Shown in pieces: positions 1 through 45,647 of a stretch of 45,647 nucleotides of DNA. Origin of the DNA: a virus. The position numbers and the translations under genes were made by a program. The stretch lies in the IMG/VR virus record IMGVR_UViG_3300034166_001133, positions 1 to 45,647 of that record; one strand, written 5' to 3'. Positions within the stretch are counted from its first letter, which is position 1. Every line of letters begins with the position of its first letter. Under the pieces are notes generated by a model. That model was not told where the DNA came from and searched no databases. It worked only from the letters and a program-made list of their open reading frames with translations.

Positions 1-136
1 CCCCGACGCCGTCGACTACGCACGCCGCCGCATCATCGAGATCAAGTTCACCGGGTACGCCAAGCCCGCTCCGTACCACCTTGCACAGCTCAACTGGTAC
101 CAGTACCAGATGTCGCTGCAGACCGGTGGCGCAGAG
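1..136. repeat. Terminal direct repeat, left copy (circular overlap)
   Basis: Bases 1-136 match 45512-45647 except at position 10 (C here, G at 45521), a silent change in an Ala codon; 126 bases from 11 to 136 are identical. The repeat lies inside a gene that continues in frame across the join, so it is best read as an assembly overlap of a circular or circularly permuted molecule, not as a biological terminal repeat. Confidence 0.93.
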
Positions 137-412
137 TGGGAAGGCGAGATGGTCCTACTCGACAAGTACGGCAAGGAGCCTAAGCGCTTCCTTATCCCGT
201 TCCCCGACGCCGAGCGCGTCGCAGAGCTTACGGCTCGCGCCGAGGGTATGATCGGCCCTATACCCCCCGGGGGTATGTGCGAGAACCGCGCACAGGCCAC
301 CACCAAGGCCCGCTACTACGACCGTGACACCCCGTGCGGCCAGCGCACCGAGATCAGCTGCCCGTACGCCGACACCTGTTTCCCACCAGAGGAGGACGAC
401 TTTGGCCTCTAG
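1..412 (+). CDS. Cas4/RecB-like Fe-S exonuclease, C-terminal part (gene crosses the circular junction)
   Basis: This is the C-terminal 136 residues of a gene that starts at 45222; the joined protein is 233 residues. Just inside this segment are the Asp of a PD motif (D99 of the joined protein) and E110-x-K112, the PD-(D/E)xK nuclease signature. Near the end lie C209-x7-C217-x5-C223, which with C34 in the other segment fit the four-cysteine Fe-S layout of Cas4 and AddB-type nucleases. Family knowledge suggests 5'-3' single-strand or end-processing exonuclease activity in recombination or replication. It overlaps the start of the mIHF-like gene by 11 bases. The Fe-S call is inferred from cysteine spacing, which is wider than the classical CxxCx5C. 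Confidence 0.85.
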   Translation, partial: PDAVDYARRRIIEIKFTGYAKPAPYHLAQLNWYQYQMSLQTGGAEWEGEMVLLDKYGKEPKRFLIPFPDAERVAELTARAEGMIGPIPPGGMCENRAQATTKARYYDRDTPCGQRTEISCPYADTCFPPEEDDFGL

Positions 413-1134: not shown

Positions 1135-1729
1135 GACTGTGGAGCTTGCGCTGGGTCTTGACCCGTCGACCAAGCTAATCGGCTTTGCGTTTGTCGACCT
1201 TGCCAACGGTGACATACGGTGGCACGGCATCCTCAAGATCAACGAGGCAGACGGCGGCTGGCGCGACCAGCAGATCTCCAAGCAAATGTCCCTGCTGAAA
1301 GACACGCTCAACGCGAAGTCCGAGGCCGACGGCGTCAACTACAAGTGCCGCGTCGTGGGCATCGAGCGAATGTTCCTTGGTATAAACGCCAAAACCGCCA
1401 TGGAGCTGTCGTACGTGGCGGGCGCCGTACACCAAGCAACACGCGCAGTATTCCCGCAAATCGAAATCTTCCGCTTCCTCCCGCCGGACTGGCGCGAAAA
1501 GTGCGGCCTAGAGCGCAACTCCTCCAAGGCCGCGCTGGCCGAGCGCGCAGTAGAGCTGGGGGCCGAACCCACTACACCACAAGACGAAATTGACGCCATC
1601 CTCATTGCCATCGCCGCACGGGGCTCACACAAGTCCCAGCCACCCGCAACCCGAAAGCGCAAGCCCGCTTCCGACAGGCCAAAGCCAGCGAGAAGTCGCT
1701 CGCGCGTGGTTCGCGCGCAAGGGGCTTGA
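1127..1729 (+). CDS. RuvC-like Holliday junction resolvase (RNase H fold)
   Basis: This 200-residue protein has the RuvC acidic set: D12 in LGLDPST, E80 in VVGIERMFLG, and D153/D156 in PQDEIDAILIA. The segment NAKTAMELSYVAGAV after E80 matches the helix that follows the catalytic Glu in RuvC. Such enzymes cut four-way DNA junctions or branched replication intermediates before packaging. ATG 1127 is chosen because GAGG sits at 1114-1117 and the D12 strand starts right after it. The last 30 or so residues are a basic Pro/Arg/Ser tail that overlaps a stretch also open in the primase frame. Confidence 0.85.
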   Translation: MSETVELALGLDPSTKLIGFAFVDLANGDIRWHGILKINEADGGWRDQQISKQMSLLKDTLNAKSEADGVNYKCRVVGIERMFLGINAKTAMELSYVAGAVHQATRAVFPQIEIFRFLPPDWREKCGLERNSSKAALAERAVELGAEPTTPQDEIDAILIAIAARGSHKSQPPATRKRKPASDRPKPARSRSRVVRAQGA

Positions 1730-1730
1730 T

Positions 1731-2663
1731 ATGGACCTCGCCCTTGAGGCGGGGGTCAGGTACACGGTACCCGGACCACGTTTGTGGTTCGACTTTGACC
1801 ACCCAGACGGGGCGACCGCGCGTCGTTATATCGAGCCCTACCGTGAGATCGTTAAAGACGACAAGGGGCACCGTTTCTGGGAGGTCGGTTCCAAGGCCAA
1901 GGGTTCCCTGTGGTTCCCTATCAACGAGCACGAGACCGACCGCCACGTTCTGCTGCTGTGCGAAGGGGAGACCGACGCACTCGCGGCAGTTCAGTCCAAA
2001 TGCCCGTACGTCGTTGCGTGCGTGCCGGGCGCGTCTATGACGTCCGCGTCGCTCAACACGTTTTGCGACCGGTACGACTACGACGGCGTGATCTGCGCTT
2101 TCGACAACGACGACGCCGGGAACAAGGGCGCGCAAATCGTGCGCGGGTACCTTGACACCGACAAGTACGAGCTTCAGCGTCTGCTGCCACCGCCCGGTCG
2201 CGACCTCAAAGACTGGCTCAAGGGTGACCAGCCGCGCGTGCAGGAAGCCGACTGGGGCAAGATTGCCCTGTCGTTGACAGACCTTCCGTCGTACGTGACT
2301 CCGTCTGCCAAGCCTGAGTCGATACCACTCAGGTCCTTTCGGCGCCCCATACGGGGCGACAAACCAGACCTGCTTGCCGTGTGGTCTCGTATCTGCCCAC
2401 CGCTCCCGAAGCGCCCCGCCCGCCACGCGAGCGAGGGCCGTGAGCTTCACGAGGCGTTCTGCCCACTCCACGACGACGGCCGCAACCCCGGCGCGTGGGT
2501 CGGTGAGGACCGCTGGGGCTGTTGGGTGTGCGGTATTGAGTCCGCCGACGTCTACGAGCTTGTGGCGTGGACGCGGGGGATCGTTCCGACACACGCCAAG
2601 CTTCGGGGTCAGGACTTTGCCCGTGCGCGGGATATGGCGCGGGTGATCGCTGGCGACCTATGA
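1731..2663 (+). CDS. TOPRIM primase-like protein with C-terminal CHC2-type zinc finger
   Basis: From ATG 1731 (AAGGGG at 1719-1724) the product is 310 residues. E78 in CEGETDAL and D125-N-D127-D128 in AFDNDDAG form a TOPRIM catalytic site. At the C-terminus C244-x2-H247 and C264-x2-C267 resemble the CHC2 zinc ribbon of DnaG-type primases, here placed after the TOPRIM domain instead of at the N-terminus. A polymerase-like (RNAP-fold) domain is not obvious. The frame stays open upstream to ATG 1590, and upstream residues REVARAWFARKGLDMDLAL look like the helix that often precedes this TOPRIM type, so the true start may be earlier. It probably makes primers with the next gene, whose ATG overlaps this stop. 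Confidence 0.8.
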   Translation: MDLALEAGVRYTVPGPRLWFDFDHPDGATARRYIEPYREIVKDDKGHRFWEVGSKAKGSLWFPINEHETDRHVLLLCEGETDALAAVQSKCPYVVACVPGASMTSASLNTFCDRYDYDGVICAFDNDDAGNKGAQIVRGYLDTDKYELQRLLPPPGRDLKDWLKGDQPRVQEADWGKIALSLTDLPSYVTPSAKPESIPLRSFRRPIRGDKPDLLAVWSRICPPLPKRPARHASEGRELHEAFCPLHDDGRNPGAWVGEDRWGCWVCGIESADVYELVAWTRGIVPTHAKLRGQDFARARDMARVIAGDL

Positions 2664-4015
2664 GCGAAGAACTCCCGACAATTGCCCAGAGCACTGTGCA
2701 GAACCTTGTGGTGCCCGACCACGGGTGGATTCGCGACTACGTCGACACCTACACTGGCCACGTTGAGGTACCGGCCGAAGCGTTCGCCGGTACTGCCTAC
2801 ACGCTGTTGTCGTCGGTTGTCGGCTGGAAGTCGTACCTCCAGTGGGCCGACGCAACCGAACCGCTCACGCTGTACACGGCGCTGATCGGTGCGTCTGCAA
2901 CCGCGCACAAAACGACGTCGCTGTCGATTGCCGAGCGCATCGGCCGTGACGCCAATGTGCAGTACCTACACCACTGTGGTGTAAGCCTCGACGACGAGGA
3001 CACTGACAACCTTGTTAAGGTCATTACCGGCGGTCATATGTCGCAGGCTCGGCTGCTCGACCTGCTGGGACCCAAGGACGCTGATCAGGCGTACGCGTGG
3101 GAGAAGGCCGGTGCGGTTCCACCCTGCCACCTTCTGGTCTGGGACGAACTCAAGGACCTGCTTGTGCAGGACAAGGGCTATAGCTTCCTCGGTGAGACCC
3201 GGCAGATGCTGCTGCGCATCTACGGAGGGTTCCAGCCGGGCTCTCAGACGCGCACCAACTACGTGCGTCCGGGGCGCTGCTCGATGGCGATGATGGGCAC
3301 AATCACCCTTGCCACGTGGAGCGACCAGCTTGGTGAAGAAGCGGTGTCGAGCGGGATGATGGGTCGACTGCTTGCGATCCCCTACGGCAAGCCGCCGCAC
3401 TGGGTGCCGCTGCCGTCGCCAATCAACGAGGAACGACGCCGCCACTTGGTGGACTGGCTCGTGGAGCTGGGGAACGTACCGTCAAAAAGTTGGGGACCGG
3501 TGCAACTGGACTCCGATGCTGCTGATTACTGGGTGGCGTGGTACACGGCACACAAGAACGAGATTGCGCGGCTTGAGACCCACGACGCCGTACAGGCAGC
3601 GGCGCAGGCCGCGCTGTTCGGTCGCTATCAGGCAACCGCGCTTAAATTCGCAGGGGTCCAGACGGTAAGCCGCTGGAACCCCGGCGACGGAGTACCTCGG
3701 GTACTCGTTGACGCGGACACGCTCAAAAGCGCGTGTGCGTATATCGACCACGTAATGCGGTTCTCGGTTCCCGTCGCAACTGAAGCGTTGGAGGACCGTG
3801 AGTACCGGCATCAGCGCCGTGTTACCGACTACGTGGCAGCCAACGGTCCGGTCAGCTTCACCGACCTGCAGCGTGCGGTGCGTACGCGTGGGATCACGGC
3901 TGACCGGTTCCGACGGCTTGTTGAGCTTCTCCACGACGAAGGGCAGCTGACCTTGTCGCGCCAGACGCGCGGCTCCCGTGAGGTCCTGCTCGTGAGCGCT
4001 GCCGAGCCTGAATGA
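2660..4015 (+). CDS. DUF3987-like P-loop ATPase/helicase-type replication protein with C-terminal winged helix
   Basis: This 451-residue protein follows the primase with an ATGA overlap. It carries a degenerate P-loop GASATAHKTTS at residues 77-87, a Walker B-like LLVWDELKDLL about 90 residues later, and SGMMGRLLAIPY, which looks like an arginine-finger/sensor region. This arrangement is typical of DUF3987 proteins found beside phage and plasmid primases. The last 70 or so residues (RVTDYVAANGPVSFTDLQRA...) look like a winged-helix DNA-binding domain. It probably acts as a replicative helicase or primase partner; helicase activity is inferred, as classical SF4 motifs are not clear. Confidence 0.7.
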   Translation: MSEELPTIAQSTVQNLVVPDHGWIRDYVDTYTGHVEVPAEAFAGTAYTLLSSVVGWKSYLQWADATEPLTLYTALIGASATAHKTTSLSIAERIGRDANVQYLHHCGVSLDDEDTDNLVKVITGGHMSQARLLDLLGPKDADQAYAWEKAGAVPPCHLLVWDELKDLLVQDKGYSFLGETRQMLLRIYGGFQPGSQTRTNYVRPGRCSMAMMGTITLATWSDQLGEEAVSSGMMGRLLAIPYGKPPHWVPLPSPINEERRRHLVDWLVELGNVPSKSWGPVQLDSDAADYWVAWYTAHKNEIARLETHDAVQAAAQAALFGRYQATALKFAGVQTVSRWNPGDGVPRVLVDADTLKSACAYIDHVMRFSVPVATEALEDREYRHQRRVTDYVAANGPVSFTDLQRAVRTRGITADRFRRLVELLHDEGQLTLSRQTRGSREVLLVSAAEPE

Positions 4016-35009: not shown

Positions 35010-35258
35010 GTGATCACCACCGAAGTCGTACAGAGCCGCATCGCCCTGTGGGAGCAGTTCACTCCCGAGTCCACTTCGCTTCACGCGCGCATATACCGCA
35101 CGCACCTCGCAGACGCGGTCTCCTACGTCGTTCTCGCGTCCTACAAGCCCATGCAGGTGCTCCAGCAGGAGCGTAACCGCCGAGACGGCGGCTCCCGCGC
35201 AGACTGGGCCAAGCGCGCCCGTCGCGCGTACTCGCACTCCAACCCCAAGGGATGGTGA
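35010..35258 (+). CDS. First gene of the plus arm, small basic protein
   Basis: The 82-residue product starts at GTG 35010 with CAGGAGAA at 34995-35002. The N-terminal half is helical (RIALWEQFTPESTSLHARIY); the C-terminal third is very basic (QERNRRDGGSRADWAKRARRAY). No family is recognised. As the first gene after the divergent control region it is probably expressed early. Confidence 0.65.
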   Translation: MITTEVVQSRIALWEQFTPESTSLHARIYRTHLADAVSYVVLASYKPMQVLQQERNRRDGGSRADWAKRARRAYSHSNPKGW

Positions 35259-35263
35259 CCACC

Positions 35264-35557
35264 GTGTCCCGCATCACTGTTCGCTTCGGCGACGCTTACC
35301 TCAACTTCGGTTTCGACCGAGCGTTCAACGGCTACTGGGGCGACATCGTGCCGCGCCACGACAACCCCGACGAACTGCCGAGCCACGAGTTCCCCGACGG
35401 GTACCCGCTCAACATCGCGGCCTCGCTGGAGCCGATCCTCGCCTCCTTCGAGGCCGCTGGCTACCGGATCCCCGCCACGGCCATCATCGCGCTGCGCGGC
35501 GCTGGCCACTCGTGGGGCGACCAGATCCTGTTCACCCCCGACGGAAAGAAGGTGTAG
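35264..35557 (+). CDS. Small protein, paralogue of the 38835-39125 product
   Basis: The 97-residue product is chosen to start at GTG 35264 because VSRITVRFGDA then aligns with MSRITVHFPDA of the protein at 38835-39125. Shared residues continue through YWGDIV, NPDELPSHEFP, GYPL, AAGYRIPATAI. ATG 35252 is an alternative start. The family is unknown to me; Trp/Gly/Asp-rich conserved positions suggest a folded domain. Confidence 0.65.
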   Translation: MSRITVRFGDAYLNFGFDRAFNGYWGDIVPRHDNPDELPSHEFPDGYPLNIAASLEPILASFEAAGYRIPATAIIALRGAGHSWGDQILFTPDGKKV

Positions 35558-35559
35558 AC

Positions 35560-35796
35560 GTGGGCGTTATCGAACACATCGAGCGCAACTGGGTCCTGTA
35601 CCTGACCGCGTTCCTCGTCACCGGCGCCATCGTGGTGTGGGGCCTCATGTTCTACGAGTGGGCGAACCTGCCCACGTGCCAGACGGTGGCCGAGTACAGC
35701 ACGGGGCTTGAGCGCCCCGAAGGCTCGCGCTACCGCGAGACCGTGGGGGACCTTCGGTACGACTGCCGAGTCCCCAAGTACCTGCCCACCCGATAG
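35560..35796 (+). CDS. Small single-span membrane protein
   Basis: The 78-residue product starts at GTG 35560 with AAGAAGG upstream. Residues about 11-32 (WVLYLTAFLVTGAIVVWGLMF) form one membrane span; the C-terminal part has two Cys (PTCQTV, YDCRVP) that would face outside if N-in. Function is unknown; early expression suggests a host-envelope or exclusion role (inference). Confidence 0.65.
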   Translation: MGVIEHIERNWVLYLTAFLVTGAIVVWGLMFYEWANLPTCQTVAEYSTGLERPEGSRYRETVGDLRYDCRVPKYLPTR

Positions 35797-35845
35797 CGCA
35801 ATTCACAACCCAGCGTCTCCTAAATCAAAAGCGAAAGGAAACACC

Positions 35846-36181
35846 GTGTCCGTTATCGCTCCTGAGTGGCGTCTCGTATCCTTCGACGCGCCCGAGCGGC
35901 TCGGCCCCAACGCGACGTGGCTCACCCCGGGCGTGCCCGTGTGGTGCGCCCGTATCGACCCCGCGTTCACGGCTGGCCGAAGTTGGTTCGTGATCTCGCG
36001 CCGTGGCGACCACGAGTTCACCCTCCGGGTGCCGAGCTCCTTCCTCGCCGAGGCGGGCATGGAGCTGCACGACGCCGCTGCCCCGGACGCCTCGATACTC
36101 GGCGACCTGTCGCACCTGTACGCCAAGTCCTGCGAGATGCTGTACGACCACCTCCTCGCCAAGTACGGAACGGAGTCCTGA
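35846..36181 (+). CDS. Hypothetical protein
   Basis: The 111-residue product starts at GTG 35846 with GAAAGGAAA at 35833-35841. It combines a beta-type N-terminal part (EWRLVSFDAPERLG, WFVISRRGDHEFTLRVP) with a helical end (LGDLSHLYAKSCEMLYDHLL). The N-terminal part loosely resembles a small beta-barrel, but no family is recognised. Confidence 0.62.
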   Translation: MSVIAPEWRLVSFDAPERLGPNATWLTPGVPVWCARIDPAFTAGRSWFVISRRGDHEFTLRVPSSFLAEAGMELHDAAAPDASILGDLSHLYAKSCEMLYDHLLAKYGTES

Positions 36182-36183
36182 GC

Positions 36184-37218
36184 ATGAACGACGCCCTGAC
36201 GTGGCCCGACCCCGCGGACCTTCCGGTCCCGGGGTGCGCTCACTTCGACGAGCGCGGCCCCGACCCCTGCGAGCCCGCATCGGCCTCGCTCCCCTACGTG
36301 GGCAACGCGGTGACCCCGCTCGACGTCGTCGACGACTACGGCTGGATCCAGTGCCCGTGCGCCGACGCTACCGCGTGGCGCCACCCCGCGCACGACTGCC
36401 CGCACTGCCTCGGCTACGGCGTCCTCGTCGCGCTGTCCGACGACGACCTCCAGCCGAAACTATGCGAGAACTGCGCCGGAGAGATCGACGACCGTGGATA
36501 CGTCGACGACACGCTCGGCGACTGCCCCACCTGCCTCGGCACCGGCCACGAGTTCGCGCGTCCCCGCCTCAGTTACGAGGAGTTCCGGGAGTGGGAGCGA
36601 CAGGAAGCGATCCTCTCCTACCAGCGTGCCGCCTACGCGGCGCAGGTCGCGCTCTACCTCCACACCGTCGAGGCCGACGGACTCCTGCCCCCGGCCGACC
36701 TCCCGCCATCCCAAGGCAAGTGGCAGTTGCGCACCATCGTTCTGGAGTCGGAAGAGCGACGCCCCTGCGGCCACTGCAAGGACGGCCTCGCCCGGGTCAA
36801 CGGCGCCCTCCAGCGCTGCACCACCTGCAAAGCCACCGGCTCCCTGCCAGTCGCCACAGGGACGTGGCTCTGCGAAGTCGACGTCAACTCCGCGTACTAC
36901 GAGCACGACCGCGACGGAAAACTCCACTCCGAGCCTGCCCTCGACCACTGGCGCGCCGCCCCCGGCTGGACTCTGCGCTTCGGCAAGCACTCCCCGCGGT
37001 ACCTGCCGACCGAGCGCTACGTACCGTTCCATCGCAACGACGCAGTCCGCGTCCGCCCGCGTCGCCCGCACACCATCGCGGGCGTGCCCACCGCCGTGCC
37101 TGCTCGCGCTAACCGCACCAGCGACGGCGTCGTCCACCCCGTCGAGCGCTGGCGCGACGACGAGTACGAGTACTACGCGAGCGGCGACTCCCTACTCCGT
37201 GCCCTGACCGCCCTGTAA
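36184..37218 (+). CDS. DnaJ-type cysteine-rich (CxxCxGxG) protein without J domain
   Basis: This 344-residue protein contains CxxC motifs in DnaJ-zinc-finger style: CPCADATA, CPHCLGYG, CENCAGEI, CPTCLGTG, then CGHCKDGLA and CTTCKATG about 80 residues later. No J-domain HPD is present in a proper context. The C-terminal 130 residues are acidic/aromatic (EVDVNSAYYEHDRDGKLHS) and may be a separate domain. DnaJ zinc domains bind unfolded protein; such phage proteins may be chaperone-like or simply zinc-structured nucleic-acid binders. ATG 36184 lies just after the previous stop. Confidence 0.68.
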   Translation: MNDALTWPDPADLPVPGCAHFDERGPDPCEPASASLPYVGNAVTPLDVVDDYGWIQCPCADATAWRHPAHDCPHCLGYGVLVALSDDDLQPKLCENCAGEIDDRGYVDDTLGDCPTCLGTGHEFARPRLSYEEFREWERQEAILSYQRAAYAAQVALYLHTVEADGLLPPADLPPSQGKWQLRTIVLESEERRPCGHCKDGLARVNGALQRCTTCKATGSLPVATGTWLCEVDVNSAYYEHDRDGKLHSEPALDHWRAAPGWTLRFGKHSPRYLPTERYVPFHRNDAVRVRPRRPHTIAGVPTAVPARANRTSDGVVHPVERWRDDEYEYYASGDSLLRALTAL

Positions 37219-37310
37219 TACAGCGACCACGCATCTCAGCAGCCAGCATCCCCGCTCGTTGAGCGGTAAACCCAACACCGAGGCTTAACGGCCAGACAAG
37301 GACGTGCACA

Positions 37311-37679
37311 GTGTCGGACTTCGACGACAACGACTGGGTCCACCCCGACGTTCTGCCCGACTGGTCCGACATCCACGACAACGTGCTGTCGGAAGCCCGT
37401 CGCACCGCAGCGTCAATCTACGACCGCACCACACCACCCCACGAGCTCGTCCACCCCGACGGCCCAAAGGGGCTTAAGGTCGGAGGCGAGCACATCGGCG
37501 CCGCCGACTTCATGCGTAAAGTCGGATTCGACGCGCGCTTCATCGTCATGACCACCACGTGGCTTGACGAGTACCGAAGCACCGTCGAGCGGCTAGTTCA
37601 CGTGTACATCGCGGAAGTCGTGTCTTCACTCGAAGCCCTGCGCTCCGCCGAAAACGAGGAGATCACCTACGATGGCTGA
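37311..37679 (+). CDS. Hypothetical acidic protein upstream of SSB
   Basis: The 122-residue product starts at GTG 37311 with AAGGACG upstream. It is acidic, with helical segments (DIHDNVLSEARRTAASIYD, VERLVHVYIAEVVSSLEAL). It overlaps the SSB start by 8 bases and is probably co-translated with it. No family is recognised. Confidence 0.62.
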   Translation: MSDFDDNDWVHPDVLPDWSDIHDNVLSEARRTAASIYDRTTPPHELVHPDGPKGLKVGGEHIGAADFMRKVGFDARFIVMTTTWLDEYRSTVERLVHVYIAEVVSSLEALRSAENEEITYDG

Positions 37680-38088
37680 CCTCAACCGAGTTTCCATTAC
37701 CGCCCGCGTCACGATGGAGCCCGAGCTCCGCGAGACCCGCGCGGGTACCCCGCTTGTCAACCTCCGCGTGTGCGTCAACGACGCCATCAAGAAGGACGAC
37801 GGCTCGTGGGACCAGAAGCCGAACTACATCAACGTCACCAAGTTCGGCCCCGACGCCCCCAACATCGCGCGCTCCGTCACCGTCGGCTCCCCGCTGGCAA
37901 TCGACGGGCGCCTCTCGTGGCGTGAGTGGACGACCGACGCTGGCGTCAAGGGTCAGGCCCTCGACGTCGTCGCCGACAACGTCCACTTCATCGACACCAA
38001 GGAGCAGGCCGAGGCCCGCCGCTCCGGCCGCGGTCACACAGCCACGTCGCACGTCGAGTCGGACACGCGCGACGAAGTGCCTTTCTAG
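37672..38088 (+). CDS. ssb: Single-stranded DNA-binding protein
   Basis: The 138-residue protein has an OB-fold SSB pattern: NRVSITARVTMEPELRETRAG, then TPLVNLRVCVND, YINVTKFGPDA and a GSPLAIDGRLSWREWTT strand, ending in an acidic tip DEVPF like the bacterial SSB tail (DDxPF) that recruits partner proteins. It coats single-stranded DNA during replication and recombination. The conserved tip suggests it can recruit host SSB-interacting proteins, which fits the absence of a phage polymerase. Confidence 0.9.
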   Translation: MADLNRVSITARVTMEPELRETRAGTPLVNLRVCVNDAIKKDDGSWDQKPNYINVTKFGPDAPNIARSVTVGSPLAIDGRLSWREWTTDAGVKGQALDVVADNVHFIDTKEQAEARRSGRGHTATSHVESDTRDEVPF

Positions 38089-38150
38089 AGGGCCACCGGC
38101 ACGTCCGACCCGTAGTGGTAGCTACGGACATAAACACCACCCACGCAACA

Positions 38151-38181
38151 GCAACGGCCCCCAACCCTCGGGGGCCGTTGC
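38151..38181 (+). terminator. Perfect 12-bp hairpin after ssb
   Basis: GCAACGGCCCCC (38151-38162) pairs with GGGGGCCGTTGC (38170-38181) around a 7-base loop. No clear T-run follows. It also overlaps the proposed start of the next small gene, so it could either terminate the ssb transcript or hide that start. A second small hairpin, CCGTAG/CTACGG, lies at 38110-38127. Confidence 0.65.
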
Positions 38182-38369
38182 TCGTTGCCGACTGGGGCTC
38201 ATGGCCCCCACACCTCAAGTTCACCAACCACCGCTATCACGAGATAGCCACAAACCGGCGCTTCCATACGCGACGCCAGATCCGCAAGGCCGCACAAGGA
38301 CGCGGCTTCGTGCTGCACTACCTCAACCACCACGGACGCTACGTCCCCTACCGCTGGTACCGCCCTTGA
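38178..38369 (+). CDS. Small His/Arg-rich protein
   Basis: From TTG 38178 the product is 63 residues (LLVADWGSWPPHLKFTNHRY...), very basic and aromatic. The start is uncertain because it lies within the 3' arm of the hairpin; the frame is open upstream to the ssb end. Support is the TTGA overlap with the next gene's start. No family is recognised. Confidence 0.45.
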   Translation: MLVADWGSWPPHLKFTNHRYHEIATNRRFHTRRQIRKAAQGRGFVLHYLNHHGRYVPYRWYRP

Positions 38370-38626
38370 CCAACGCTGCCCTCCACTCGACCTCCATCGA
38401 CGACCACGTGCACCTGTGCCCGCGCTGCGACTCCTCGCACTTCGTCGACTACAACGCACCGCCCGAGCTCACCCGCCGCGCCGTCGCCTGCGGGGTATAC
38501 CCCCCGGCCCTCTCACGCTTCGACAACGAGACCGACATCTGCTCCCACTGCGGCACAGAGGAAGCCCTACAGGACTACGCACACCTGCCACTCACGGGTC
38601 CCAGCGACTGGCCACTGGTCCCATGA
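38366..38626 (+). CDS. Small zinc-ribbon protein
   Basis: The 86-residue product starts at TTG 38366 overlapping the previous stop. C18-x2-C21 and C59-x2-C62 form a zinc-ribbon pair separated by about 37 residues. It ends with an ATGA overlap into the next gene. Function is unknown; probably nucleic-acid or protein binding. Confidence 0.6.
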   Translation: MTNAALHSTSIDDHVHLCPRCDSSHFVDYNAPPELTRRAVACGVYPPALSRFDNETDICSHCGTEEALQDYAHLPLTGPSDWPLVP

Positions 38627-38838
38627 GCCGCCCACCACGACCCACAGGTATCTACTACCTCGACACCCAGCACAACGTCGCGCACGCCTGTATGAGCGAC
38701 CAGCTACTCGTGATCGACTGGGACTCCCTGACCGAAGACGAGGCACGCCAAATCGACGCGTACCCCGACGATCTACCGGCGGTGCTCCGCGCCGTCTGCA
38801 TACGCAGCGGCCTCATCAACCCCGACATGCTCCCATGA
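38623..38838 (+). CDS. Small hypothetical protein
   Basis: The 71-residue product runs from ATG 38623 to an ATGA overlap with the following gene. It is acidic with a short helical part (LTEDEARQIDAYPDDLPAVLRAV). No family is recognised. Overlapping starts on both sides support translation. Confidence 0.6.
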   Translation: MSRPPRPTGIYYLDTQHNVAHACMSDQLLVIDWDSLTEDEARQIDAYPDDLPAVLRAVCIRSGLINPDMLP

Positions 38839-39125
38839 GCCGAATAACCGTGCACTTCCCAGACGCCAGTTGCATCCTCGGCTGGCACGAATTCACGATC
38901 GGCAAGATCCACGTCAAAGGATGGTGGGGGGACATCGTCCACACCACCAACCCCGAGGGACTTCCCACTGCGGAGTTCCCGGGACACTACCCGCACCGAC
39001 TCTACCCCGACCTCGAAACACTCGTCGACTACTTCCGAGACGCCGGGTACGACATCCCAATCAACGCCATCAACGCAGTCGCTGACGCGACAGACCGCTC
39101 CACCGAAAAGGAGTTCTTCGCGTAA
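38835..39125 (+). CDS. Small protein, paralogue of the 35264-35557 product
   Basis: The 96-residue product (MSRITVHFPDASCILGWHEF) shares a clear pattern with the 35264-35557 protein: SRITV.F.DA, WGDIV, NP..LP..EFP, .YP, then AGY.IP..AI. It directly precedes the gap before the AAA+/VWA pair. The family function is not recognised. Confidence 0.65.
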   Translation: MSRITVHFPDASCILGWHEFTIGKIHVKGWWGDIVHTTNPEGLPTAEFPGHYPHRLYPDLETLVDYFRDAGYDIPINAINAVADATDRSTEKEFFA

Positions 39126-39218
39126 CAGCACCACCCGCAACACGTTCCTGTTTCCCGGCTTCTCCGTTTCAGGAGTTGCTGGCGCACCAGCCCATCCCGA
39201 CCAAGGACACCACACACC

Positions 39219-39914
39219 GTGAGCATCACCATCGACCAGTGGGACCTCGCCGAGAAGTGCATCGGCAACATGCGACGCGTTCTCCTCTACGGCCCTCCCG
39301 GCACTGGCAAGACCTACTCCGCCATGCACGCCAACCGCACCTTCGAAACCCCGCTCTACACCAACACCCTCACAGAAGAGACCCCTGCGTCCGAGCTTCG
39401 CGGCCACTTCGTCATGAACGACGGCTCGTACAGCTGGATGCACGGCCCTGCTATCCGTAGCTGGCTCGACGGTGCCCGGTACGTCCTCAACGAGCTGGAC
39501 CGCGCAAGCGGCGACTGCCACTCGTTCTGCTACGCCGTGCTCGACGACCTCGCGTCCGCACAGCTCACCCTGCCCACCGGCGAGACCGTCAAGCCCGCCG
39601 ACAACACCACCTTCGTCGTCACGATGAACGGCACCGAGTCCGACCTGCCTGAGGCCCTGATCGACCGTATGGACGGCATCATCAAGATCACGCGTCCCCA
39701 CCCAGCCGCGATCGCCGCACTGCCCGACGACCTTCAGGTGATCGCCACTGAGGCCACGTCCGCCGACGACTCGAACGTCCGCACCAGTATCCGCAAGTGG
39801 TTCGCCTTCGCCGAGGCACGCAACAACATGGACGTCGTTCACGCTTGCGTCGCCGTCTTCGGCGAGCGCGCGCAGGACATCATCACCGCCTACGAGCTCA
39901 AGGCACGCCTCTAA
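39219..39914 (+). CDS. MoxR-type AAA+ ATPase
   Basis: This 231-residue ATPase has Walker A GPPGTGKT (25-32), Walker B VLNELDRAS (E92, D94), a sensor 1-like FVVTMNGTE and LPEALIDRMDGIIKI, which matches the MoxR/CobS/RavA-type sensor 2 approach with its arginine. It is short, close to a bare AAA+ module. MoxR-type ATPases form hexamers and work with VWA-domain partners to remodel or activate target proteins. The next gene is such a partner and their stop and start share a base, so they are surely co-translated. GTG start at 39219. Confidence 0.85.
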   Translation: MSITIDQWDLAEKCIGNMRRVLLYGPPGTGKTYSAMHANRTFETPLYTNTLTEETPASELRGHFVMNDGSYSWMHGPAIRSWLDGARYVLNELDRASGDCHSFCYAVLDDLASAQLTLPTGETVKPADNTTFVVTMNGTESDLPEALIDRMDGIIKITRPHPAAIAALPDDLQVIATEATSADDSNVRTSIRKWFAFAEARNNMDVVHACVAVFGERAQDIITAYELKARL

Positions 39915-41263
39915 TGGGATTCAGCGCTCTTCCCAACTCGTTTTCCACGGGCGAGCGCAACTGGACCGCAGCCCGTGGCAACGAATCGGCCGACTTCACC
40001 ACCCGCACGGTCCACGCACCGACCGACCTGTCACCACGCAGCACATACGCCCGTACTCACGCCAACGCAACGGTCGCGATCGGCCACGACACCCTTGCGG
40101 AGTTCTCCCGAGAAGCCGACATCCCATACGACGTCTGCACCGCGACCGACTACGGCCGCATCTCAAGCGCGTTGCAGCAGACATACGCTGCCGCCGAGGA
40201 CGGGGTCTGGGACACCTACGAGGAGGAATACGACGACTCCACGACCATACCCCACTACAAGGCTCTCGCCCTCGACCCCGGCCGCCGCCTCCCCGACGGA
40301 GCCATCGAGTTCTACGAGTCCACCGACGACATCCTCGCCGCCTACGCCATCGCCGCAAAGTCCTGCATCGGCGGACCCTCCGACGACTGGGTGACCTTCA
40401 ACACCGCTCTCAGCAAGCGCATCCCCGACGACTCTCCCGACGCAAAGCGACGCAACCTCTTTCGCACCGCAGTGCAACAGGCCGTCCGCGCAGCTGCGTC
40501 AGCCATCGTTGGCGACTACGACGAGCACCCCACCCACGAGTCACTTTCCGACGTTAAGGAGCCGGAAACCACGGAACGCGCCGCCACTGCGGCGTGGTAC
40601 TTCCTTCAGCAATACCTCAACCGCGACGACGACGCAGGCGAGCTTTACCCGCGCGACGAGAGACTCGCCGACGACTCATGGGACGACTGCGACGAATCTG
40701 AGTGGTGCAACATGCACTTCAGGTACCCGACGCTCGTCCTCCCGCAGTCTCCCAAGCTTCGCCGACGCGCGTGGCGTATGTCGGACGAAGGGGCTCTGAT
40801 CCGTTCACCACACCGCATGTGCTCCGACGGCCGCGTATTCGGCTCAGTACGCCGCAAGGCCGACTCCGGCAGCGTGATCATCGACACGTCCGGCTCGATG
40901 CACCTCAGCTCCGACGACATCGACGAGATCATGACCGCACTTCCCGGCGTCACCGTCGCAACGTACTGCTCCGACGGTGACCACGACGGAGAGCTCCGCA
41001 TCGTGGCACGCAAGGGCCGCCGCGCAGGGAAAGACGACCTTACCGACCGCAACTGGGGCGGCAACGGCGTTGACGGCCCCGCACTGCGCTGGCTCGCAAA
41101 GCAGCCCGCACCGCGCTACTGGGTGTGCGACGGCGTCGTCACCGGCATCTACGACAACACGAGCCCCAACCTACGCACGGAGTGTGACCGCTTGACACGC
41201 AGATACGACATCACCCGCATTCACAGCATCCACCACCTTCGCGACATGTTCGGCAACAGCTGA
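39914..41263 (+). CDS. VWA-domain protein, partner of the MoxR-type ATPase
   Basis: The 449-residue protein ends in a VWA domain (about 318-449). DTSGS (D324, S326, S328) is the MIDAS metal-binding motif, with GGNGVDGPALRWL as the probable third MIDAS element and YWVCDGVVTG as the aspartate strand. The N-terminal 300 residues are acidic and helical, with no family recognised; they may bind the target or the ATPase. Known parallels are RavA-ViaA, CbbQ-CbbO and CobS-CobT. It shares a base with the ATPase stop codon. The client protein in this phage is unknown. Confidence 0.82.
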   Translation: MGFSALPNSFSTGERNWTAARGNESADFTTRTVHAPTDLSPRSTYARTHANATVAIGHDTLAEFSREADIPYDVCTATDYGRISSALQQTYAAAEDGVWDTYEEEYDDSTTIPHYKALALDPGRRLPDGAIEFYESTDDILAAYAIAAKSCIGGPSDDWVTFNTALSKRIPDDSPDAKRRNLFRTAVQQAVRAAASAIVGDYDEHPTHESLSDVKEPETTERAATAAWYFLQQYLNRDDDAGELYPRDERLADDSWDDCDESEWCNMHFRYPTLVLPQSPKLRRRAWRMSDEGALIRSPHRMCSDGRVFGSVRRKADSGSVIIDTSGSMHLSSDDIDEIMTALPGVTVATYCSDGDHDGELRIVARKGRRAGKDDLTDRNWGGNGVDGPALRWLAKQPAPRYWVCDGVVTGIYDNTSPNLRTECDRLTRRYDITRIHSIHHLRDMFGNS

Positions 41264-41303
41264 TCGCTCTCGTCGAAACCATAGTCTGCGCCCTCATAAT
41301 CAC

Positions 41304-41492
41304 GTGGTACATCCGGCACGCCCGCAACCAATAGCCCCCGGCGACACGGTCAGGTTCGTCCGCAACTCACAATGGCGCTTCGCCGTTGTCAAACGGGTCG
41401 GCACCAAATACCTGCACGTGTCGCTCGCGGGTTACACAACCAAAGTTCCCATCAAAGACGCAACCATCTGGAGGCCACCCAGTGGACCCTGA
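41304..41492 (+). CDS. Small beta-type (SH3/KOW-like) protein
   Basis: The 62-residue product from GTG 41304 has GDTVRFVRNSQWRFAVVKRV and KYLHVSLAGYTTKVPI, a pattern that looks like a small SH3 or KOW-type barrel. The start is not well supported by a ribosome-binding site. It overlaps the next gene by 11 bases. Function is unknown. Confidence 0.5.
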   Translation: MVHPARPQPIAPGDTVRFVRNSQWRFAVVKRVGTKYLHVSLAGYTTKVPIKDATIWRPPSGP

Positions 41493-41760
41493 CCGCCCTG
41501 CCATAACGCTGCGCATCCACGCGCCGCAAGACCTCATCGACAGGCACGGAGACGACGTCATCAACCCCGTCATCACCGTAGACCTCGACACCGGCACCCT
41601 CACGTACTCGCCCGACGCCGACGACGCACCCGTCAACCTCGCCATAGACGCCGACACCATCGCCACCGTCGGCACCGTGCTTCTCTGGTGCCTCAAGCTC
41701 CGCCTTGAACAGAAGCTCGACCTGCCCAGCCCTGCACACGCCACCATGGAGCTCTTCTAG
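41482..41760 (+). CDS. Small hypothetical protein
   Basis: The 92-residue product starts at GTG 41482 with GGAGG at 41470-41474. It is acidic, with a beta-type middle (VITVDLDTGTLTYSPDADDA) and a helical end (VGTVLLWCLKLRLEQKLDL). No family is recognised. Confidence 0.62.
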   Translation: MDPDRPAITLRIHAPQDLIDRHGDDVINPVITVDLDTGTLTYSPDADDAPVNLAIDADTIATVGTVLLWCLKLRLEQKLDLPSPAHATMELF

Positions 41761-41762
41761 CG

Positions 41763-42350
41763 ATGACACACTCCCAGCTCGGCGAGGACAGCGTCCAGAT
41801 GGTCCGTGATGCTGCCGCGCTGATCAACGACCCCACCATCGACGACCGCACCGCCACGTTCGCGCGAAGCGCCCTTACGTTCGCCGCCAAGGTCTTCGAG
41901 TACACCACCACCCACCGTGAGGCGACCGCCACCATCGTCGCCGCGGAACCTCTCCCCACGCCGACACCCCACCCGCGCACGCGGGTGCTCGACCCCCGGC
42001 GTATCCGGTACCGACAGAACGGTGCACCGTCGCTTCGCGTAGCTCCCGAGGAGTACGTAACGCGCGAAGCTATCGACGCATCACTGGAGTGGTACGTCAA
42101 CGCCCCGAGCGGCGCTCAGCTCCACTCGGAGTGGGGCCGCCGAGCTGACTGCTTCCTCGTCGCCGCCATGCTCATCGAGAACGGCCAAACCGCGACGCCC
42201 GACCTCGTTGCAGAGTACACCGGGCTTCAGACCAACAACGCGTCCACGATGCTCAACGACCTCGTCGTTCACGACGTCCTCCGCCGCGTGCTGCGCAACG
42301 GCCGCGTCCACTTCGAACTCTCCAACTGGACCAAGGAGGCTCTGTCATGA
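41763..42350 (+). CDS. Probable winged-helix DNA-binding protein
   Basis: The 195-residue product starts at ATG 41763. The C-terminal third (FLVAAMLIENGQTATPDLVA, EYTGLQTNNASTMLNDLVVH, DVLRRVLRNGRVHFEL) has the helix-turn-helix plus wing layout of MarR/replication-initiator-type winged helices. The N-terminal half is helical with a Pro/Thr linker. It is the best candidate in the window for a transcription regulator or origin-binding protein; the TGCACAA cluster lies 1 kb downstream. Function is inferred. Confidence 0.6.
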   Translation: MTHSQLGEDSVQMVRDAAALINDPTIDDRTATFARSALTFAAKVFEYTTTHREATATIVAAEPLPTPTPHPRTRVLDPRRIRYRQNGAPSLRVAPEEYVTREAIDASLEWYVNAPSGAQLHSEWGRRADCFLVAAMLIENGQTATPDLVAEYTGLQTNNASTMLNDLVVHDVLRRVLRNGRVHFELSNWTKEALS

Positions 42351-42745
42351 GATACCCGTCCCGCTCACACCGCGCCAAGGTCGCCGTGACCGTCGAGATC
42401 CTCGTCCCCGAGACCGACAACCTTCACGTCTGCGAGAGGATCTCCGGCGACTGGACCCGCAACCACTACGCGCGCCTTGCGCTTAACCGCGCCCTCGGGC
42501 TGACCGCGCACGACAGCGGCCCGTCCCTCGACCAGTACGAGGTAGTCCGCGCTTACCGGTCGAAGCACATCGAAGCCGGACTCCCGCTTGCAGGCGTGAC
42601 GCTAACGCCTGAAACGACCCACATCGCCACCACTTCCGGTACCGAGGATCACGACGCTGTTTCAGCAGAGTCCACCGATCCCTCAGACTCCGACTCCGAC
42701 GATGCCGTGGTCGACATCGGACGCTGGGACTTCGTCGTGGCCTGA
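42347..42745 (+). CDS. Hypothetical protein with acidic Ser-rich tail
   Basis: The 132-residue product starts at ATG 42347 (ATGA overlap). The N-terminal 85 residues look folded (VAVTVEILVPETDNLHVCER); the tail is acidic and Ser-rich (STDPSDSDSDDAVVD). Its last 97 bases are also the antisense coding end of the HNH gene. No family is recognised. Confidence 0.6.
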   Translation: MRYPSRSHRAKVAVTVEILVPETDNLHVCERISGDWTRNHYARLALNRALGLTAHDSGPSLDQYEVVRAYRSKHIEAGLPLAGVTLTPETTHIATTSGTEDHDAVSAESTDPSDSDSDDAVVDIGRWDFVVA

Positions 42746-43176
42746 CGGCCCAAGTCCACTGGCATCTCGCCAGCGATACGACGGGCGCGGTTTCGTTGGG
42801 CCACAAGCCCTTCGAGCCGCGCCCGCGTGTCGGCGAGGAGCTCCTCGTCAAACTTGCTGCGGTTGCAGTCTCGACACGCCGTAACCAGATTCCCCGCCGT
42901 GTCAGCCCCACCAGCCGAGTGCGCCACAATGTGATCGGCCTCCAGCTTAACCCCGTCCTCAACCGACGATTTTCCGCAGTACACGCAGCGGAACTCATCA
43001 CGCGCAAAAATTACCCACTCCTTGCGCCTGCGCCTCTTCCCACGGCGCGTGTAATCCCGCCGCTGCGCCGGTCGGTCAGACAAGGACGCGCGCGCTGGTG
43101 TTCCGCCGCCCGCGTCAGACGACGCCGCGCACAACATTGCGCGTTCTTGCACGCGATTGCACACCGAATTGTGCAT
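42649..43176 (-). CDS. HNH endonuclease
   Basis: The 175-residue protein, on the minus strand inside the plus arm, has an HNH core: C64-x2-C67, LEADHIVAHS (D81, H82), N96 in GNLVTAC, then C101-x2-C104 and NRSK. A basic patch (RRGKRRRRK, about 45-53) precedes it. HNH enzymes nick or cut DNA as homing, packaging-associated or defence nucleases. ATG 43176 is set by GGAGGA seven bases upstream; the frame is open further to 43230. An AT-rich promoter-like stretch with TATAAA twice lies upstream. Lone opposite orientation suggests a mobile acquisition. Confidence 0.85.
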   Translation of the reverse strand: MHNSVCNRVQERAMLCAASSDAGGGTPARASLSDRPAQRRDYTRRGKRRRRKEWVIFARDEFRCVYCGKSSVEDGVKLEADHIVAHSAGGADTAGNLVTACRDCNRSKFDEELLADTRARLEGLVAQRNRARRIAGEMPVDLGRQATTKSQRPMSTTASSESESEGSVDSAETAS

Positions 43177-43374
43177 CCAAACTCCTCCGTTTACCCTGCT
43201 ATTTATACCTTTTATACCAACGTTGTGCATATTGCACTACCGACCCTACCCCTATTCGCCAAACCTATCCGTGAGGAGAGGCCCTGCACAATTTGCACAA
43301 CTTGCACAACGCGCGGAATTGCCCTGCAAAGCCCACACTTTCCAAGTGCACCCCCCCGCACAACGGGTGCACAA
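43128..43374. repeat. TGCACAA motif cluster with AT-rich stretch (origin or operator candidate)
   Basis: Six exact TGCACAA motifs occur on either strand (43169-43175 and 43223-43229 reversed; 43285-43291, 43294-43300, 43303-43309, 43368-43374), plus CGCACAA at 43128-43134 and 43357-43363 and TTGCAC at 43147, 43157 and 43232. Three are in tandem at exactly 9-bp steps. The stretch 43198-43240 is notably AT-rich for this genome. The region spans the HNH 5' end and the divergent gap to 43421. Confidence 0.7.
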
Positions 43375-43420
43375 CTACCACAGCGACGGGGGCCGTGCTA
43401 GCCTCCCGGGGGGCCTTGCT

Positions 43421-43735
43421 ATGAGCGACCACCTAGACGCGTTACAGCGTGCGTTTTCCGCCACGCCCGAACCCGCCAGCACACCGCACCTCGGCGCCTC
43501 TGCGCTGTCCGACACCAAGCGGGCGCTGGACGACGCACGCGGGCAACTCACCGTGCTGCGCAAACAGCCCGACTTGACCTCGGCCCACGCCAAGCAACTT
43601 GCAGCTTGTGCGCAGTCGCTGCGTCGCTGCGCCCACTCACTGGAGCGGCTCGCTGCGGGCGTCGAGGACCACGTGACCAACGGCGTGTCGCTGTGGACCG
43701 GAACCGCAGGTCACGAGCAACCGGTGCTGCTGTGA
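43421..43735 (+). CDS. Small helical protein
   Basis: The 104-residue product starts at ATG 43421 behind a run of G (43408-43413) that could act as ribosome-binding site. Residues about 30-88 form long charged/Ala-rich helices (LSDTKRALDDARGQLTVLRK, SLRRCAHSLERLAAG). No family is recognised. It is first in a four-gene run into the Fe-S nuclease. Confidence 0.62.
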   Translation: MSDHLDALQRAFSATPEPASTPHLGASALSDTKRALDDARGQLTVLRKQPDLTSAHAKQLAACAQSLRRCAHSLERLAAGVEDHVTNGVSLWTGTAGHEQPVLL

Positions 43736-44070: not shown

Positions 44071-44411
44071 CCTACTACGCGCGCGGGGCCTTGATCTCCG
44101 ACGTGCAACCACCCCACTCACAGTGGGACGCTTTCGGCATTTACGGTGACCACTCGGCGTACTGGCTAAGCCGTGAGCCGTGCTTTACACCCACCCAACT
44201 GGAGGAATTAGACCTTGAGTACATCCCCGAACACTCCCTCCCCTTCTGCCTCTCACACTCCGCCGTACTCCGCATCCGACGTGGTCGACCCGATCAACCT
44301 GCCGGGCGCAGTACACCCAGCCCCCGACGTTCCGTCCGCCACCCCACCCGCGCTCGCACCCAGCTCCCTGCCCGCACCCACTCAGGGCTCACACGAGCTG
44401 GCAACTACTAA
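44067..44411 (+). CDS. Small protein overlapping the next gene by 197 bases
   Basis: The 114-residue frame begins at ATG 44067 (ATGA overlap). The first 60 residues look like real protein (GALISDVQPPHSQWDAFGIY); the remainder, in the overlap, becomes Arg/Pro/Ser-rich and may be non-selected. The start is well supported by coupling. The long overlap with a Shine-Dalgarno-led gene in another frame is unusual. Confidence 0.5.
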   Translation: MTYYARGALISDVQPPHSQWDAFGIYGDHSAYWLSREPCFTPTQLEELDLEYIPEHSLPFCLSHSAVLRIRRGRPDQPAGRSTPSPRRSVRHPTRARTQLPARTHSGLTRAGNY

Positions 44412-45069
44412 CTACGACGACGGCTTCTCCGACTCGGTTCCGTTTCAGGCGCTCAACCTGCGCATCAACCGCAGCAAGGGTGTGTACCTGCTCGAAGGCG
44501 ACGCCGATGAGCGCTCCGAGGTCTTCCTCATTCCGCGCGGCTCCGCACCGGCAAAGTCCTACTACGGCCTGCCCTACGACCCCAAGACTCCCCACGAGGC
44601 AAGCTGCTCCTCGCCCGACGGTAAGCTTGGTTACGGGTGGATCGACGCCGGTGACCAGACCGACGTTCGCGCCCGCTCGTGCGTCAGCTGCCCGCGCCGT
44701 GGCTACGGCGCCGGTACCTGCGACGACCTCCAGACGCTGCTTGCGTACGATGTCGGCAAGCACACACCCGTGCTTGTGACCTTCAAGAACGCCGAAATCA
44801 ACCCGCGCCGCGGCGTGTTCACGCTCGCCGTCAACCGTATGCGCACGCTCGGCCTGCGTCCGACCGACTCGGTCTTCCGCCTTACGTTCGGCAAGGCCGA
44901 CGGCCCCTACTACAACGTGCAGATCGACGTTCTGCCCATCGCCGACGCGGGCCTCCCGGCCGACAAGGTCGCTGAGATCTCCGCGCTGCTGGACAATTGC
45001 TGGACGCCCTACCGCGACGGCATCGCGGCCGACGCCGCACAGATTCACGCCTCACTGACTGGTGAGTAA
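44215..45069 (+). CDS. Hypothetical protein, Pro/Ser N-terminus plus cysteine-containing domain
   Basis: The 284-residue product starts at TTG 44215 with GGAGG at 44201-44205. The first 70 residues are low-complexity Pro/Ser/Ala. The rest looks folded, with SCVSCPRRGYGAGTC as a possible metal site and a beta-type half (HTPVLVTFKNAEINPRRGVF, SVFRLTFGKADGPYYNVQID). It lies just upstream of the Fe-S nuclease and may be a recombination or single-strand-binding partner (inference from position). Confidence 0.68.
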   Translation: MSTSPNTPSPSASHTPPYSASDVVDPINLPGAVHPAPDVPSATPPALAPSSLPAPTQGSHELATTNYDDGFSDSVPFQALNLRINRSKGVYLLEGDADERSEVFLIPRGSAPAKSYYGLPYDPKTPHEASCSSPDGKLGYGWIDAGDQTDVRARSCVSCPRRGYGAGTCDDLQTLLAYDVGKHTPVLVTFKNAEINPRRGVFTLAVNRMRTLGLRPTDSVFRLTFGKADGPYYNVQIDVLPIADAGLPADKVAEISALLDNCWTPYRDGIAADAAQIHASLTGE

Positions 45070-45221: not shown

Positions 45222-45647
45222 ATGACGACAACCCTGCTCCCGGTACTGGACGACCCACTGGCTAGCACCAAGGAATGGACCCCGCCGACCGGGGAGCTTC
45301 GCCCCTCGATGCTGGGCGCGTGCGCCCGGTACTCGTGGAACGAAGTACGCATCCCGGCCGAAGAGAGAGTCGTTGGCCCCATTGGCCGCGAGGTCATGTT
45401 CTACTCCGGCCACGCTGCCGAAGAAAAGTTCATCGAGCTTGCCTACACCATCAACGGCGAGCTTCTGCTGCACGGTCAGGAGCTGTACAACGGCTACGGC
45501 GGCGTGTGCCACCCCGACGCGGTCGACTACGCACGCCGCCGCATCATCGAGATCAAGTTCACCGGGTACGCCAAGCCCGCTCCGTACCACCTTGCACAGC
45601 TCAACTGGTACCAGTACCAGATGTCGCTGCAGACCGGTGGCGCAGAG
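45222..45647 (+). CDS. Cas4/RecB-like Fe-S exonuclease, N-terminal part (continues at position 2)
   Basis: ATG 45222 begins the 233-residue nuclease whose C-terminal part occupies positions 2-412. This segment holds C34 in SMLGACARYSW (candidate first Fe-S cysteine), SGHAAEEKF as motif I-like helix, and GGVCHPDAVDY with the PD motif, then EIK. The last 136 bases duplicate the window start. GAAGGT at 45205-45210 is a possible ribosome-binding site. Confidence 0.87.
   Translation, partial: MTTTLLPVLDDPLASTKEWTPPTGELRPSMLGACARYSWNEVRIPAEERVVGPIGREVMFYSGHAAEEKFIELAYTINGELLLHGQELYNGYGGVCHPDAVDYARRRIIEIKFTGYAKPAPYHLAQLNWYQYQMSLQTGGAE
45512..45647. repeat. Terminal direct repeat, right copy
   Basis: This stretch is the right copy of bases 1-136 (one mismatch at 45521). 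It marks the join of a circular map of about 45511 bases. Confidence 0.93.

Follow-up and report, generated by a model that had tools for sequence, protein, structure and literature searches.

Gene neighbourhood of the box cluster

The window, by which we mean the whole stretch of DNA that was analysed, comprised all 45,647 bases of the virus record IMGVR_UViG_3300034166_001133. Since the record coded for a replication set as well as for terminase, major head and tail proteins, it was assigned to a tailed phage. Its two ends (1-136 and 45512-45647) carried a repeat of about 136 bases with one mismatch as read by eye, an exact end repeat being absent. Thus, the record was probably a complete circle that had been cut inside a Cas4-like gene. 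No close named relative of the phage was found: among named phages there was no nucleotide match to the cluster region, no protein match to the conserved protein P0003, and a single match to the DUF3987 protein at 30% (Mae-JY09).

A cluster of short boxes headed the replication operon of this phage. As the initial annotation had stated, it was situated between divergent genes, with an HNH endonuclease gene on the minus strand and a gene for a 104-aa protein on the plus strand from 43421. The relevant genes and features were the following.

41763-42350, plus strand: winged-helix-like gene pointed out by the initial annotation, not conserved with the arrays
42649-43176, minus strand: HNH endonuclease gene, 175 aa from the ATG at 43176
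43137-43174, plus strand: outer-left array of four TTGYRC boxes at 43137, 43147, 43157 and 43169 (steps of 10-10-12)
43180-43239, no strand: AT-rich stretch (37/60 A/T), candidate unwinding region
43223-43237, plus strand: inner-left pair, TTGTGC at 43223 and TTGCAC at 43232, 9 bp apart
43285-43309, minus strand: inner-right array, GCACAA at 43286, 43295 and 43304 (steps of 9-9), facing the left array
43347-43374, minus strand: outer-right array, a degenerate GTGCAC at 43347 and GCACAA at 43358 and 43369
43376-43404, plus strand: promoter-like element of the rightward operon, GTG[CA]TA[TG]C preceded by an ACAG-like element (by eye)
43421-43735, plus strand: 104-aa protein, function not assigned, first gene of the rightward operon
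44215-45069, plus strand: conserved protein P0003, 64% identity to the relative G001 over the alignment
45222-45647, running on at 2-412, plus strand: Cas4/RecB-like nuclease, split by the record end
1136-1729, plus strand: RuvC-like resolvase
1731-2663, plus strand: TOPRIM primase-like protein
2660-4015, plus strand: DUF3987 putative helicase, candidate initiator
3779-4012, plus strand: predicted winged helix at the C-terminus of the DUF3987 protein, candidate reader of the boxes

Number and order of the boxes

The cluster was initially described through the heptamer TGCACAA, with six exact and two one-mismatch copies. The six exact copies were recovered at 43169 and 43223 on the minus strand and at 43285, 43294, 43303 and 43368 on the plus strand, and three of them (43285, 43294 and 43303) were indeed in tandem at exactly 9 bp. 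On the other hand, four one-mismatch copies rather than two were present in 43128-43374 (43128, 43158, 43233 and 43357). The whole window contained 11 exact copies against 5.73 +/- 2.39 in 100 dinucleotide shuffles, two of which reached 11. With up to one mismatch allowed, there were 10 copies in 43128-43374 where 0.75 would be expected at the window's own density. A matrix derived from the arrays gave nine sites in the best 300 bp, against at most six in each of 200 first-order Markov genomes; for G001 the corresponding values were 12 and at most seven.

The cluster was larger and more ordered than the initial annotation described. The six-base boxes TTGYRC and, in the opposite orientation, GYRCAA revealed more boxes and their order than the heptamer, which is accordingly not the best unit. 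With these boxes, the region contained 14 in the window, 14 in G001 and 12 in a second relative, L305, where 0.92, 1.05 and 1.68 were expected from the density of each sequence. Hence the motif was far less frequent elsewhere in the genome, whether judged by shuffles, Markov genomes or box counts. The plan of the window was 4 + 2 boxes facing 3 + 3; among these twelve, the box at 43347 was degenerate. The inner-right array was the previously noted TGCACAA tandem, that is, the same box as TTGYRC in the opposite orientation. A search of both strands gave a single occurrence of the four-box left pattern in the window and a single one in G001.

The AT-rich stretch reported beside the cluster was also found, with 37 of the 60 bases from 43180 being A or T. 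This was near the genome maximum; eight other 60-bp windows of the genome reached the same value, and the best listed ones were all at a single place close to 16495. The AT maximum itself fell in the cluster in G001 and in the 12.4 kb of L305 that were analysed. The stretch was off centre, lying between the outer-left and inner-left boxes, and it also contained degenerate TTATAC boxes 9 bp apart.

The boxes were located in the intergenic region and in the 5' end of the HNH frame. The most likely HNH start was 43176, with GGAGGAG ahead of it (by eye), and with this start the left array overlapped the 5' end of the frame. It could be supposed that the cluster arose by chance, by slippage or as tandem units of the HNH coding frame, especially as the 9-bp TGCACAA tandems of viral contigs were for the most part coding repeats. 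However, the spacings of 10 were out of frame and thus did not correspond to repeated codons, the spacing was kept though the sequence between the boxes changed, and the density was never reached by the Markov genomes. Facing arrays also recurred in unrelated phages, as described below. This explanation is strongly disfavoured, and we give it next to no chance of being correct.

Conservation in two relatives

Two relatives of the phage had the cluster. G001 (L002; 46,111 bases) was found via the P0003 protein, and L305, a 30,941-base contig of the MAG Proteobacteria bacterium isolate WB4_2_1501, via the Cas4-like protein. In both, the cluster was still flanked by the HNH gene to its left and by the 104-aa gene to its right, so that it was present in close relatives together with its conserved flanking genes. 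Accordingly, neither of the two refuting conditions named in the initial annotation (equal motif density elsewhere, absence from such relatives) held. Their replication proteins had 64-86% identity to those of the window, and the 104-aa protein was 44-51% identical across the relatives (both by tblastn).

The left array was spaced 10-10-12 in all three phages, while the bases inside and between the boxes varied. Similarly, the 9-9 spacing was kept in both relatives, with a degenerate third box in L305. The outer-right spacing was 11 plus the degenerate box in the window, 12-10 in G001 and 12-11 in L305, the relatives having full sets of three boxes. On the inner left, G001 and L305 had one exact box, compared to two in the window, the second box being inexact in both relatives. 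A 28-bp block over the 9-9 array (43283-43310) was identical between the window and G001. Among the exact matches shared by these genomes it ranked joint fifth in length, with four longer and two equal; according to an overall view, rather than one match by match, the four longer ones were in stretches with called genes.

Beyond these relatives, when P0003 was searched against 387 genomes from the phylum of G004, G004 alone matched. The TGCACAA cluster was absent from the HNH relatives L053-L057, and such an array was absent from the two regions checked in Mae-JY09. Elsewhere in the early region of the window, at 39219-41263, an AAA (MoxR-like) ATPase gene was followed by a second conserved gene, von Willebrand A-like by eye, and this pair was kept in both G001 and L305.

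Short tandem arrays in other viral sequences

We considered TGCACAA as a universal iteron and rejected this idea. The 9-bp triple was present in 50 viral stretches, mostly as coding repeats, and the control heptamer TGCAACA, which has the same dinucleotides, formed 9-bp arrays in at least 120 viral stretches. Arrays outside ORFs of 100 aa numbered six of 50 for TGCACAA and seven of the 80 analysed (of at least 120) for TGCAACA. Short tandem heptamers are thus common in phages.

The neighbours of the arrays were viewed for a hand-picked part of the loci, and we claim no rate from them. Among the matches listed, TGCACAA arrays came directly after AAA_25 helicases in L007, L123 and L130 and directly after D5/DUF5906 helicases in L023 and L045, and others were near integrases, terminases and portal genes. 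The heptamer alone proves nothing, and it is the facing layout that carries the argument. In L007, L123 and L130, the boxes after AAA_25 were mostly divergent rather than facing and surrounded an apparent hairpin. In L202 (893-2377), a 9-bp TGCAACA array was 45 bp behind a DnaB-like gene (by eye), so short arrays adjacent to helicases were not limited to one word. In enterobacterial P88-like prophages (L067:6460; about 40 of 80 among the matches listed), TGCACAATAGTGCACAAATTTGCACAA was repeated in 10-bp steps just outside the portal gene, and P884B11 had a TGCACAATAGTGCACAAATTTGCACAA array near the record end. The arrays of L107, L108 and L122/L140 were beside apparent tyrosine integrase genes and were possibly arm sites.

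A packaging, attachment or partition site would be in line with the arrays close to P88-family portal genes (about 41 of 80 among the matches listed, by eye) and close to the integrase-like genes of L107, L108 and L122/L140 (by eye). In the window, however, the terminase large subunit gene was about 9 kb distant, and no integrase or ParA/ParB-like family was found among the proteins scanned, which covered part of the ORFs. We therefore consider such a site very improbable at this locus.

The facing layout in unrelated phages

The four-box left pattern was found in three stretches of IMG/VR, namely G001, L310 and L311, and the reversed-box control gave no match there. L310 (contig G391, GC 0.32) and L311 (contig G392, GC 0.43) belonged to phages unrelated to the window. 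In L310 the spacing was 10-10-11-12 facing 12-10-10, and in L311 it was 10-10-12 facing 9-9; in both cases the facing array was outside the query. A further example, L045, had been fetched for its 9-9 array alone and showed 10-11 facing 9-9 and 11-11. Its array began 8 bp past the stop of a 916-aa DUF5906 primase-helicase.

We also counted facing pairs in 319 sequences (3.05 Mb), a redundant set in which many sequences had been chosen for such motifs. There were 17 facing pairs, reducing to six phages (the window, G001, L305, L310, L311 and L045), and three permuted control boxes gave none in the same sequences. Because of the way in which the sequences were chosen, single arrays were enriched by design, whereas the facing arrangement was unselected. 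Two divergent pairs were seen, in L006 and L039, within low-complexity repeats.

The helicase genes of these phages differed. In G392, the helicase was a DUF927 primase-helicase of 953 aa, encoded a long way from the boxes. In G391, the gene next to the array (486 aa) had a PHROG match of unassigned function and no Pfam match, and appeared D5-like by eye. The models DUF3987, DUF5906, D5_N, VapE and AAA_25 matched neither G391 nor G392.

Candidate initiator

DUF3987 is described as a predicted replicative helicase family (PMC5862659), and the primase of PICMI satellites is also marked by DUF3987 according to PMC10803314. In our phages, the DUF3987 protein was 80-84% identical across the window, G001 and L305, and its C-terminus was almost invariant. 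The full-length structural model was poor (pLDDT 42.4), and for this reason the C-terminal domain alone was used; it was confidently predicted to be a winged helix (pLDDT 85.6). This predicted domain had weak PDB matches to winged helices (best E 0.005), as well as weak matches to winged-helix regulators and to phage primase/helicase models. The DUF3987 helicase (2660-4015) is the likely initiator and a candidate binder of the boxes. Its gene was about 4.8 kb further along the circle from the cluster.

Another binder, the winged-helix-like protein at 41763-42350, had been proposed in the initial annotation. A homologue of 30% identity was present in L305, but G001 kept the arrays without any homologue (tblastn), and this candidate was rejected.

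A proposed replication origin

Taken together, we think it probable that the cluster is the phage's replication origin and that it follows the construction of SaPI/PICI and P4 satellite origins. The early reading as iterons with an unwinding region is thus favoured by the evidence, with a different protein as the binder. In the proposed mechanism, two sets of boxes face each other (TTGYRC on the left, GYRCAA on the right), about six per side including the degenerate one, around the AT-rich stretch. An AAA+ helicase encoded by the phage itself, the DUF3987 protein being the most likely one, would read the boxes via its C-terminal winged helix and assemble there as two oppositely oriented rings. 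These rings could then melt the AT-rich DNA and start two forks, with priming possibly performed by the TOPRIM protein encoded beside the helicase.

GC skew, suggested earlier as a way to locate the origin, did not provide decisive evidence. The third-position skew of co-oriented genes did differ between the left and the right of the cluster (p=0.0008 in the window, 0.019 in G001 and 0.030 in L305). Nevertheless, the change was gradual, a clean switch point was absent, and no opposite terminus was seen in the skew. As to the bias itself, the early plus-strand genes at 35252-42745 were strongly C-rich at third positions; this faded gradually rightward (43421-5440) and was absent from the structural genes.

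Several known systems can be compared with this arrangement. For SaPIs, PMC7581432 describes a Rep that binds iterons through its C-terminal domain and relates DUF927 to SaPIbov1 Rep, and PMC9894130 describes origins at which repeats in opposite orientation load two head-to-head helicases. According to PMC6092414, an AT-rich region with an iteron set on either side is a constant feature of PICI origins. The window was similar in having several short iterons in two sets, the comparison being one of published layouts rather than of the SaPI box or its spacing. The two sets were likewise in opposite orientations with an AT-rich region between them, though its position away from the exact centre of the arrays speaks against the origin reading. 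SaPIs and PICIs encode a helicase with a DNA-binding C-terminal domain, and here there was a DUF3987 match with a predicted winged helix. In contrast to these satellites, the window represented a full-size tailed phage with a DUF3987 helicase, a separate TOPRIM primase and the box TTGYRC. Its site headed an operon between divergent genes instead of being immediately 3' of the helicase gene, which also counts against an origin. So do the Mae-JY09 regions without such an array, the helicase models that matched neither G391 nor G392, and the frequency of short tandem heptamers in phages. The L045 array was placed immediately 3' of its helicase gene, as in SaPI/PICI.

The P4 annotation gives type 1 repeats of 8 bp in both orientations, with steps of 9 bp in crr and 10-11 bp at ori; the steps of 9 and 10 in the window match these. 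The P4 alpha protein binds the repeats, whose sequence differs from the window box. Moreover, the P4 sites are divided between ori and crr, which are separated by about 4.7 kb, and alpha fuses primase and helicase, unlike the situation in the window. In lambda-type origins, the iterons of the O protein are next to an AT-rich region, as they were here. The boxes of the window were mostly intergenic and in two facing sets, not inside an initiator gene, whereas lambda iterons sit inside a replication gene (PMC11447400). For SCCmec, PMC7581432 describes a putative origin in which the C-terminal domain of the D5-type helicase Cch2 binds short direct repeats beside its gene. These differ from the window in being AAGTG iterons, three only, directly downstream of the gene. 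The window boxes shared CACA with the DnaA-box consensus TTWTNCACA, and no exact TTWTNCACA was found by eye. In the open-licence literature, we found no description of this box or layout in a tailed phage.

Possible regulation at the same site

The region also had features of a double promoter. The promoter-like elements came from inspecting the three-way alignment of the window, G001 and L305 by eye; a consensus promoter scan found none. In this alignment, the box at 43223 was close to the -35 of what may plausibly be a leftward promoter, itself probably within the AT-rich stretch, and the box at 43369 was just upstream of the conserved rightward promoter-like element. Such elements make regulation possible, so the region could be an operator, alone or together with an origin.

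As an operator alone, the boxes would be bound cooperatively by a phage regulator that controls the divergent promoters of the HNH gene and the replication operon, which the region separates. Since TTGCACAA itself forms a short inverted repeat (TTG-CA-CAA), it could be bound by small dimers, and one box in G001 was the perfect palindrome TTGTACAA. However, about 65-90 bp separated the 9-9 array from the rightward promoter-like element downstream of it, an AT maximum is not needed by an operator, and the layout of 4+2 facing 3+3 recurred in unrelated phages with other neighbours. In addition, no regulator conserved in the window, G001 and L305 was found, the 41763-42350 gene being missing in G001. 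We thus regard an operator alone as unlikely.

A combination of both functions has a better case, since the origin layout and the promoter-like elements are within the same 300 bp. The initiator would then repress its own operon via the same boxes, and initiators of the iteron type often autoregulate. The distance of 4.8 kb along the circle to the helicase gene argues against it. We find the combination plausible, though on balance rather less probable than its absence. It overlaps the origin reading, and the confidences therefore do not sum to one.

Implications for phage replication

Six phage contigs that differed widely in GC showed the facing layout with matching spacings. This suggests that self-loading double-helicase origins exist in ordinary tailed phages too. 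We further propose, tentatively and with slightly less than even confidence, that one geometric origin code is common to tailed phages and satellites. In this code, about six boxes per side (four at 10-10-12 and two at 9, facing three at 9-9 and three at 10-12) would fit one helicase ring per side. The spacing may remain constant while the box (TTGYRC, TTGTAC) and the helicase family (DUF3987, DUF5906, DUF927, D5-like) vary. If the origin reading is true, it offers a sequence rule for finding where uncultured phages begin replication, and the DUF3987 helicase becomes an initiator open to testing. If the geometric code is true as well, the origins of many uncultured phages would be findable by geometry alone.
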